Part shown: positions 20,801 through 23,800 of the stretch, in pieces
Numbering within the stretch: the first letter of the stretch is position 1
How the letters are laid out: every line of letters starts with the position of its first letter
DNA from: Oasisia sp. SBJ-2009
Lineage: Eukaryota; Annelida; Polychaeta; Sabellida; Siboglinidae
NCBI GenBank assembly: GCA_964017155.1
Contig: OZ024863.1
Location: 38,742,038-38,806,037 of the forward strand
Direction of reading: 5' to 3'
DNA: 64,000 nt
Translations under genes and position numbers: made by a program
Notes under the pieces: model-generated
What the model saw: the letters and a program-made list of their open reading frames with translations, nothing else
Told to the model about the DNA's origin: nothing
The model's database searches: none

Positions 20801-23800
20801 GATGATCAAGCACTGGGGGGTTTATAGATAAGAGTAATGATCAAGGACTGGGGGGTTTATAGATAAGAGTGATGATCAAGGACTGGGGGGTTTATAGATG
20901 AGTGATGATCAAGGACTGGGGGGTTTATAGATAAGAGTAATGATCAAGGACTGGGGGTTTATAGATAAGAGTGATGATCAAGGACTGGGGGGTTTATAGA
21001 TAAGAGTAATGATCAAGGACTGGGGGGTTTATAGATAAGAGTAATGATCAAGGACTGGGGGGTTTATAGATAAGAGTAATGATCAAGGACTGGGGGGTTT
21101 ATAGATAAGAGTGATGATCAAGGACTGGGGGGTTTACAGATGAGTGATGATCAAGGACTGGGGGGTTTATAGATAAGAGTAATGATCAAGGACTGGGGGG
21201 TTTATAGATAAGAGTGAAGATCAAGGACTGGGGGGTTTATAGATAAGAGTAATGATCAAGGACTGGGGGGTTTATAGATAAGAGTAATGATCAAGGACTG
21301 GGGGGTTTATAGATAAGAGTAATGATCAAGGACTGGGGGGTTTATAGATGAATGATGATCAAGGACTGGGGGGTTTATAGATAAGAGTAATGATCAAGGA
21401 CTGGGGGGTTTATAGATAAGAGTAATGATCAAGGACTGGGGGGTTTATAGATGAATGATGATCAAGGACTGGGGGGTTTATAGATAAGAGTAATGATCAA
21501 GGACTGGGGGGTTTATAGATAAGAGTGATGATCAAGGACTGGGGGGTTTATAGATAAGAGTAATGATCAAGGACTGGGGGGTTTATAGATGAGTGATGAT
21601 CAAGGACTGGGGGGTTTATAGATAAGAGTAATGATCAAGGACTGGGGGGTTTATAGATAAGAGTGATGATCAAGGACTGGGGGGTTTATAGATGAGTGAT
21701 GATCAAGGACTGGGGGGTTTATAGATAAGAGTAATGATCAAGGACTGGGGGGTTTATAGATAAGAGTGATGATCAAGGACTGGGGGGTTTATAGATAAGA
21801 GTAATGATCAAGGACTGGGGGGTTTATAGATAAGCGTAATGATCGAGGACTGGGGGGTTTATAGATAAGAGTAATGATCAAGGACTGGGGGGTTTATAGA
21901 TGAGTGATGACCAAGGACTGGGGGGTTTCTAGATAACAGTGATGCTCAAGGTCTGGGGGGTTTGTTGGAGTAATGATCAAGGACTGGGGGGTTTGTTGGA
22001 TTGATGACCAAGGACTGGGGGGTTCTAGATAGGAATGATGATGAAGGACAGGGGACGGAGCTCGGAGTAACGATCAAGATAGGAGTGAAAATGTTGAGGG
22101 AAGGGCTGAATATGGACAAAAGATAAAACACAAGGACTAGAATCAAGGGGAGCCTCTCCACTGGTGACCAAGCAGCAAGAGAAGGGAAACATTAGTGCTG
22201 TGTGTTAGTCATGCAGTCAGTGCAGGGCGAGGTAGACATCTACAGTGAGTGGAGACAGTGGAGTGCAATACCTATGCTCTGTGATGCGGTGACCTTCACC
22301 CGAGACTGGACCCTGCCGTTGTTGTTAACCAGGGTAAAACTGTAGCGCATATATCGCAGGAACAAACTGGGCATTCCGTCGGTGCAATCTGACTCGCAGA
22401 AATGGCAACTGCATGGGTTGGTCATCCGGTTTGTTGGGCAGACACCAGACAGGCCCCTGCTGGCGCAAACAGAACATCATCACGAACAGTACACACAGGA
22501 GGCGCCACTGGTCCATGCGGGTACACTGTGGGGTTCAAGTGTCGTCGTCTCGGCTCATTCCTGTGTATTTTTCTCTTCGCCAGTTTGGAAGTTGTTTTCC
22601 CACGGGAAAAATTTGGCAAAAGGTCACCCATATTGTTTAGCTCAATTTATGTTGTGTAGCCAAATATAAAATGTATTGAGACTCGGTGTGTTTACTGAAA
22701 TGGGGACAGGATAAAAACCTCAGCGCATTTGCTGAGGACTGGTGAATGTTAAAAACACCAACTGAATGAATAATAATAACATATAATCAAAACCAACGAC
22801 AAACACCCAATTTCTAGGGCTGTAGTAACTGTAGTTAGCGTTTATTATTATTAACCTGCGCCCACTAAAATATCCCAGTCTCCCGCCGGGAAATCCAGAA
22901 AAACCTGACTGCCAAAATTTCCAAATTCACGAGGTCAGACTACGGCGCTTGAACCACTCACATACGCGCATGAACGCATCTCAACGAACCGACATGACAG
23001 ACACAAATCAACAAGACATAGCTCCTGTACCTAGGCTCTCATCGTTCATTACGGTAAACTCGCGTGTGACGTCATGTTTGAGGAACCTGCTGTGTGTAAT
23101 GATGCTGATTGTGTAGGCATTGTACGGCTTGAAGGCATCGGCCCCACTGCTGGGCCACGTACAACTACAGTTTGAGCAGTAACAACGATCCTCGACACGC
23201 ACCTGGGACGTCTGACATGAGAACCAACCCGAGAAACTGCAACAGGTTGGTGACACAAACACGCACAATGACACATCACCGTAAACAACGGGTGTCACCC
23301 CCCCCCCCCCCCCTACCTGGGATTAGCCAGCATGGTAATGTATTACCAAGTCCGCTGTCTATAATTCCGAAACGTTAAATATCACTCACAAGGTATTGCA
23401 GTAAATTATGCTTAATTGCTGCCAGTAAACCTTGTTTTTATATCGGACGTTTTATTTACCATTTAAACATGTTGTATGGTGGAAACTTTCAAATTGCACC
23501 CACTGTTACAAGGTTACATCTTAGAAATAAAATCAGTTTTTTTTATATCATGGTCTATTTGGTTTGATATAACATGGAATAATTATGTTAACACCTAACA
23601 AATCCCAGAATTTTTTTAATTTTCACCAAGGAATGTTTTTGTAGATACTAAAAACAAGAGATTATTGCATGTAGGTGCCCAAAGTGATGCCCATGAAATG
23701 ACAGAACAGGTGTGTTTTATTTTTATTATTGTAACTGCACTAGGGTCAGAATATCATAATAGATGTTTGGTATGTCATCGTCCACTATAATCCCACCAAT

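Follow-up and report, generated by a model that had tools for sequence, protein, structure and literature searches.

A putative either-or exon pair in the binding module of a class-I-like cytokine receptor gene of the tubeworm Oasisia

The stretch of DNA analysed here (the window, 64,000 nucleotides of the Oasisia sp. genome) carries on its minus strand a gene, P1, in which the second half of an extracellular domain (D2) is encoded twice, by the neighbouring exons 4a and 4b. The two exons form what appears to be a real, conserved pair, and their use is probably mutually exclusive. We regard it as likely that this class-I-like receptor gene underwent an ancient tandem exon duplication and gives rise to an mRNA with either 4a or 4b, by which one face of the binding module would be swapped. 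Mutual exclusion is what we infer from the reading frame, the fold and the parity of the cysteines.

The window gene encodes an Ig-like domain (D1; matched part of the exon 26069..26359, minus strand as are all P1 features; Pfam ig, 27.2 bits against a cut-off of 21.8). Exon 3 (24188..24311) encodes the first half of D2 with the motif C-x9-C-x-W-C. Exons 4a (23031..23236, 206 nt) and 4b (22272..22456, 185 nt), the a-type and b-type versions of the second half of D2, run from phase 2 to phase 1 and are separated by an intron of 574 nt (22457..23030). Exon 5 (16452..16594), which starts at phase 1, encodes the first half of D3, and the second half follows at 15990..16136 with WSETEWT (Pfam fn3 over D3, 52.6 bits; cut-off, 25). 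Further FN3 half-exons were located between 2692 and 15406 by tblastn with the Lamellibrachia satsuma protein P0002, at 15406-15299, 13929-13705, 13008-12847, 12229-12080, 11494-11327, 10451-10308 and 2823-2692. An N gap in the assembly lies immediately to the left of the window, at the expected place of the remaining P1 gene; neither a C-terminal end of P1 nor a JAK box was found. A second possible acceptor of exon 4b occurs 3 nt upstream and would move the exon edge to 22459 with the frame unchanged. The GC content is 0.51 in exon 4a and 0.54 in exon 4b, but 0.44 in the 574-nt intron that separates them and 0.35 in intron 3. Exon 4b is overlapped by a signal-peptide-like frame (22534-22328), which ends at a stop inside the exon and is regarded as chance.

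The original prediction of two exons with these lengths, this spacing, AG/GT borders and equal phases was reproduced, and so was its statement that the use of both or neither breaks the frame. Each exon takes two bases from exon 3 and gives one to exon 5, and in P1 the products with 4a alone or 4b alone between exons 3 and 5 have an open reading frame throughout. The product with both exons reaches a stop 11 residues past the last whole 4a codon, and the one that joins exon 3 directly to exon 5 meets a stop 6 codons past the junction glycine. Positions 16590-24190, from exon 3 to exon 5, were scanned for stretches bordered by AG and GT that are open, measure 140-269 nt with a length of 3n+2, and encode three or more cysteines; seven were listed, all of them 4a, 4b or trimmed or extended forms of the two.

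The same pair occurs in a paralogous gene, P6, in the searched genome (764 Mb, 33 contigs), in which the window gene lies on contig C10 and P6 on contig C7 (43080285-43124029, plus strand). Its exon 4a (C7:43090730-43090959, plus strand, 230 nt) and exon 4b (C7:43091394-43091587, plus strand, 194 nt) also run from phase 2 to phase 1, 434 nt apart, with a homologous exon 3 upstream and a homologous exon 5 downstream. The peptides encoded by 4a and 4b have 68 and 61 residues in P1, and 76 and 64 in P6. In P6, too, either exon alone leaves the frame open; the product with both reaches a stop after 12 residues, and the one with neither does so only once 46 residues of exon 5 have been read, a late stop that counts against exclusive use. 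In L. satsuma, one protein model, P0006 (LSAT2_021137), has an a-type peptide and, after it, a b-type peptide. A protein database search gave four matches at E ≤ 0.001, three of them from L. satsuma; a separate search gave one match at E ≤ 1, again from L. satsuma, and one further search gave no match. With P0006 as query, 20 matches at E ≤ 10 were obtained in the whole genome, the a-type part matching two places (C7 and the window) and the b-type part three (C7, the window and the gene P4). An AlphaFold2 model of P0006 alone had a mean pLDDT of 34 and was set aside. A HWVL-stop just past the b-type donor ends both the P6 read-through and the P0006 model, which is possibly a common intron start or a real truncated soluble form.

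These findings bear out the proposal that the second half of D2 is genuinely encoded by both 4a and 4b, and the suggested search in relatives recovered the pair with equal phases in the C7 paralogue and both peptides in L. satsuma. The concern that one copy might be a dead duplicate has largely been answered: between P6 and L. satsuma, 4a (37/57 identical residues) and 4b (37/60) diverge like D1 plus exon 3 (89/142). When P1 is compared with P6, 64 codons of 4a differ at positions 1, 2 and 3 in 34, 28 and 39 cases, and 61 codons of 4b in 30, 25 and 42. The excess at third positions is modest in both exons, and the overall picture does not look like decay.

The P0006 model, in passing from the a-type into the b-type peptide, also points to another reading, namely joint use of 4a and 4b, in P6 and L. 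satsuma at least, in which 4a would be spliced to a downstream acceptor in 4b and D2 would gain half a domain. In P6, AGs at +5 and +11 of exon 4b would splice 4a to 4b in frame, whereas the first 70 nt of P1 exon 4b contain only one AG joinable in frame, at +68, so that the window gene would be without such an acceptor near the start of 4b, and its double product is frame-shifted. The P0006 model, however, also overruns the b-type donor up to a stop and looks like a gene-model error. Joint use would furthermore repeat one set of FN3 strands and leave the number of cysteines odd. Three cysteines are present in exon 3 in all five genes read through, and an odd number in each of the eight exon 4 copies, although in L. 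satsuma the gene model may have cut off the beginning of the b-type peptide; one copy therefore gives an even total and two copies an odd one. Joint use is on this evidence unlikely, and the use of one exon or the other is preferred.

The similarity between 4a and 4b themselves is too weak to serve as evidence on its own, and was rejected as such. Their local BLOSUM62 score of 39 was equalled or exceeded by 58 of 5000 shuffles of 4b and, with the cysteines left out, attained by 877 of 5000. Among the window ORFs of 30 aa or more, two besides 4b have a higher score against 4a (48 and 46), and three besides 4a have a higher score against 4b (40 each). Strong evidence came from the relatives, with profiles built from the C7 paralogue and L. 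satsuma, the window gene being held out, and run against 5053 ORFs of 274 kb. The a-type profile placed 4a at rank 1 (E 4.5e-6; runner-up, 0.69) and the b-type profile placed 4b at rank 1 (E 9.3e-8; runner-up, 0.16); the b-type profile matched 4a with an E of 0.0097. A published predictor of mutually exclusive exons relies on similar length, on splice sites and frame, and on a minimal score of 15%, and 90 of 16180 non-exclusive fly exons used as control had all features, according to the part of PMC3228551 consulted. In P1 and P6, 4a and 4b differ in length by less than its default limit of 20 aa and are identical in splice-site type and reading frame (AG/GT, phase 2 to 1); in P1 they score 39/380 (local) and 26.5/380 (global), below the 15% minimum, in our own scoring and not that of the program of PMC3228551. 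Duplication of the whole domain, with a second copy of exon 3, was also considered and rejected, as P1 and P2 have one clear exon 3 each and the remaining matches were other FN3 exons or had an E of at least 0.4 (tblastn, 274 kb).

The receptor family is small and includes, besides P6, three genes on C10 that are closely related to one another and lie leftward of P1, at 165-240 kb or nearer: P2 (C10:38667497-38685350, plus strand, about 57-75 kb to its left), P4 (C10:38504755-38516861, minus strand) and P5 (C10:38562726-38576870, minus strand). Homologues of D1 were identified in P2, P4, P5, P6 and L. satsuma, those of exon 3 in P2, P4, P6 and L. satsuma, and those of exon 5 in P2 and P6. In a tree of the exon 4 copies, the three a-type exons stand apart from the five b-type exons (98/97), so that the exon duplication predates the gene duplication separating P1 from the C7 gene; the 4b exon of P1 forms the longest branch. 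In P2, the held-out profile over the fetched region and an ORF scan revealed the b-type exon only and no a-type exon, and in P4 the candidates listed between exon 3 and 4b were all b-type forms. The exon 4 stretch of P5 consists mostly of N. A more distant receptor-like gene, P3 (window-relative 143113-153681, minus strand), has an Ig-like D1 and D3-like exons and no recognisable D2 exon. An ORF of P2 with several tyrosines (window-relative -53050 to -52115) lies downstream of a hydrophobic stretch at -56076 and is a candidate cytoplasmic part; a hydrophobic stretch was also seen by eye in P0002.

The protein is related to the class I cytokine receptors by homology, without being filed as a canonical member. 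In phmmer searches of solved structures with D1-D3 queries, CRLF1 scored 52.2 bits (E 5e-13) with 4b, 43.9 with 4a, 41.0 (in two pieces) with both exons and 40.4 with neither, and the prolactin receptor (3ncc) 40.0 (E 2.6e-9), 24.1, 27.9 and 22.2 bits, respectively. The higher CRLF1 score with either exon than with both or neither speaks for the use of one exon, while the gain of only 3.5 bits by 4a over the query with neither counts against it. The scores of IL-31RA (9eza) count against it as well, with 35.5 for neither exon, the equal of 4b (35.9) and above 4a (30.3) and both (28.5). By the CRLF1 and prolactin receptor scores, 4b is the canonical version and 4a has diverged, although not all chains agree, as IL-31RA shows. 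A gp130 chain (7z0l) was matched with an E of 0.0077, and P0006 matched CRLF1 weakly (E 0.0031). Pfam ig and fn3 exceeded their cut-offs in the window constructs, and no Pfam cytokine-receptor family did so in any of the four proteins.

Class I receptors are described, in the part of PMC1963337 consulted, by the motifs C-x(9-10)-C-x-W, x(26-32)-C-x(10-15)-C and WSXWS. The first is present in exon 3 as C-ISDNFQSMT-C-T-W, with x9, and likewise in P2, P4, P6 and L. satsuma. In both P1 and P6 the first gap of the second motif is 25 residues for 4a and 24 for 4b, below the class I range, and a second gap of 10-12 is present among the several cysteines. WSXWS is replaced by WSETEWT in P1 and by LWSDPVT in P2. 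The protein is therefore called class-I-like rather than canonical, as no Pfam cytokine-receptor family passes and the spacing and WSXWS are inexact. It resembles CRLF1, the prolactin receptor, IL-31RA, the leptin receptor and gp130 in sequence over D1-D3 or D2-D3, and differs from them in its extra D2 cysteines, its inexact motifs and its duplicated exon 4; the L. satsuma homologue P0002 differs further in having about five FN3 stretches. The earlier designation as gp130-like stands for the order of an Ig domain, a D2-D3 module and FN3 repeats, but the best matches are CRLF1 and then the prolactin receptor or IL-31RA. Likewise, the motifs C-x(8,10)-C-x-C-x2-C-x(1,3)-C-T and F-x2-Y-x2-Y, on which the two exons had been aligned, were both found in 4a and 4b, but the first does not characterise such pairs in general, since in P6 and L. 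satsuma the a-type exon has three cysteines.

The divergence of 4a, which adds little to the receptor match, could also mean that the window gene uses only one exon of the pair, its partner being a leftover of the duplication or a cassette that triggers NMD. The long branch of P1 4b and the presence of only the b-type exon in P2 and P4 would fit such a history, but both exons are open with intact borders and phases, the held-out profiles recover both, and third codon positions differ most from P6 in each, which leaves this explanation a small chance of being right. It is very improbable that one exon makes a truncated secreted form, with splicing ending at 4b and read-through into its intron. 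The HWVL-stop shared by P0006 and P6 speaks for this, but b-type exons run in frame into exon 5 in P1 and P6, read-through has other endings in P1, P2 and P4, and no other exon 4 was found in P2 and P4.

In the preferred explanation of alternative use, the exon for the second half of D2 would have been duplicated in tandem before P1 and the C7 paralogue parted, and the copies would have diverged into a-type and b-type exons, either of which can link exon 3 to exon 5 in frame. The mature mRNA would contain 4a or 4b, and P1 transcripts with both or neither, with their early stop, would be degraded or give a truncated protein. A single copy would be needed, since one domain cannot hold two sets of the same strands and the cysteines pair with one copy only. 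Each exon would bring its own later D2 strands, its own segment aligned with the gp130 EF loop and its own extra cysteines, and the choice between them would change one face of the binding module, comparable to the exchange of half an Ig domain by FGFR IIIb/IIIc. The exons, their phases, the frame outcomes, the recurrence of the pair and the age of the duplication relative to the genes are shown by the sequences, whereas we infer one-or-other use in RNA, decay of the wrong products and an altered choice of ligand or co-receptor.

Exclusion would most simply be enforced by the frame. Among human clusters of mutually exclusive exons, 377 (60%) contain exons not divisible by three and 9% have potential steric interference, in the part of PMC5740500 consulted; the introns of 574 and 434 nt do not suggest a steric route. 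A mechanism based on a distant branch point has been described for OGDH in the part of PMC7969005 consulted. An inverted repeat of 29 nt (76%) links exon 4a with a stretch before 4b; RNA pairing as the mechanism was rejected, because each of six duplex tests was matched or surpassed in stability by 30 to 184 of 200 shuffles, and this result counts against the preferred explanation.

The segments AFKPYNAY of 4a and LFLRYMRY of 4b are aligned with LFTPYEIW of CRLF1. With the gp130 letters that we assume for this region, the exon 4 segment would correspond to the gp130 EF loop, and loop 142-147 would lie near the border of exons 3 and 4. In gp130, Y190 and F191 of the D2 EF loop contact IL-6 (PMC12394151), and loops 142-147 and 164-172 contact IL-11 (PMC10662374), in the parts of these sources consulted. 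All three a-type exons, but none of the five b-type exons, have a tryptophan three positions ahead of their first cysteine, and a switch between 4a and 4b may alter an aromatic contact. More tentatively, and at somewhat less than even chances, the pair could be an ancient splice switch, older than the gene duplication and present in at least two annelid genera, which swaps the cytokine-contacting half of D2 and thereby gives each gene two ligand specificities.

Alternative exons for half a ligand-binding domain are already known from the FGFRs, where, in the part of PMC3825415 consulted, exon 8 or 9 completes one extracellular domain after the shared exon 7 and the ligand range differs between IIIb and IIIc. 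In the FGFR case the domain is of Ig type, the protein is a receptor tyrosine kinase, and both transcripts and binding have been measured, whereas the worm case concerns an FN3 domain in a cytokine-receptor-like protein known from sequence alone. The human clusters with exons not divisible by three share with the worm pair the frame shift on joint inclusion. Unlike it, the human clusters were confirmed by junction reads that bridge the other exon, with reads joining the two accepted only where the frame is shifted; neither cytokine nor interleukin appears as a word in the main text of PMC5740500. Dscam-type arrays likewise consist of tandem exons of which one is used for part of an extracellular domain, but they are large and belong to a cell-adhesion protein, whereas the worm gene has two copies in a receptor. 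No cytokine receptor with such an exon switch was found in the literature searched, which left most subscription journals outside and included parts of PMC11311815, PMC13203501 and PMC5740500 and a search for terms in PMC9741552, which yielded nothing. Of the tubeworm genome papers looked through for cytokine, gp130, JAK and fibronectin, PMC8789280 has no mention and PMC6862839 has two, both on cytokines generally.

If alternative use is true, it would be an FGFR-style isoform switch of a kind that is not known from the cytokine receptor family. We know of no splice switch of D2 in the class I receptors and, to our knowledge, no cytokines are known from this animal group. Vertebrate cytokine receptors acquired new ligands mainly through gene duplication, and a splice switch within the binding module would be another route. 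One scaffold would then have two natural ligand-binding faces, in animals that may need to tolerate symbionts.

Minisatellite-like repeats were observed near exon 4 in P1 (19865-22054), P6, P2 and P4, after 4b in the last two; they may carry no meaning, such arrays being abundant in the genome. Three long ORFs of the window, at 4725-5981 (minus strand), 34708-36882 (plus strand) and 42045-44570 (minus strand), were judged by eye to be reverse transcriptase-like and to belong to transposable elements.
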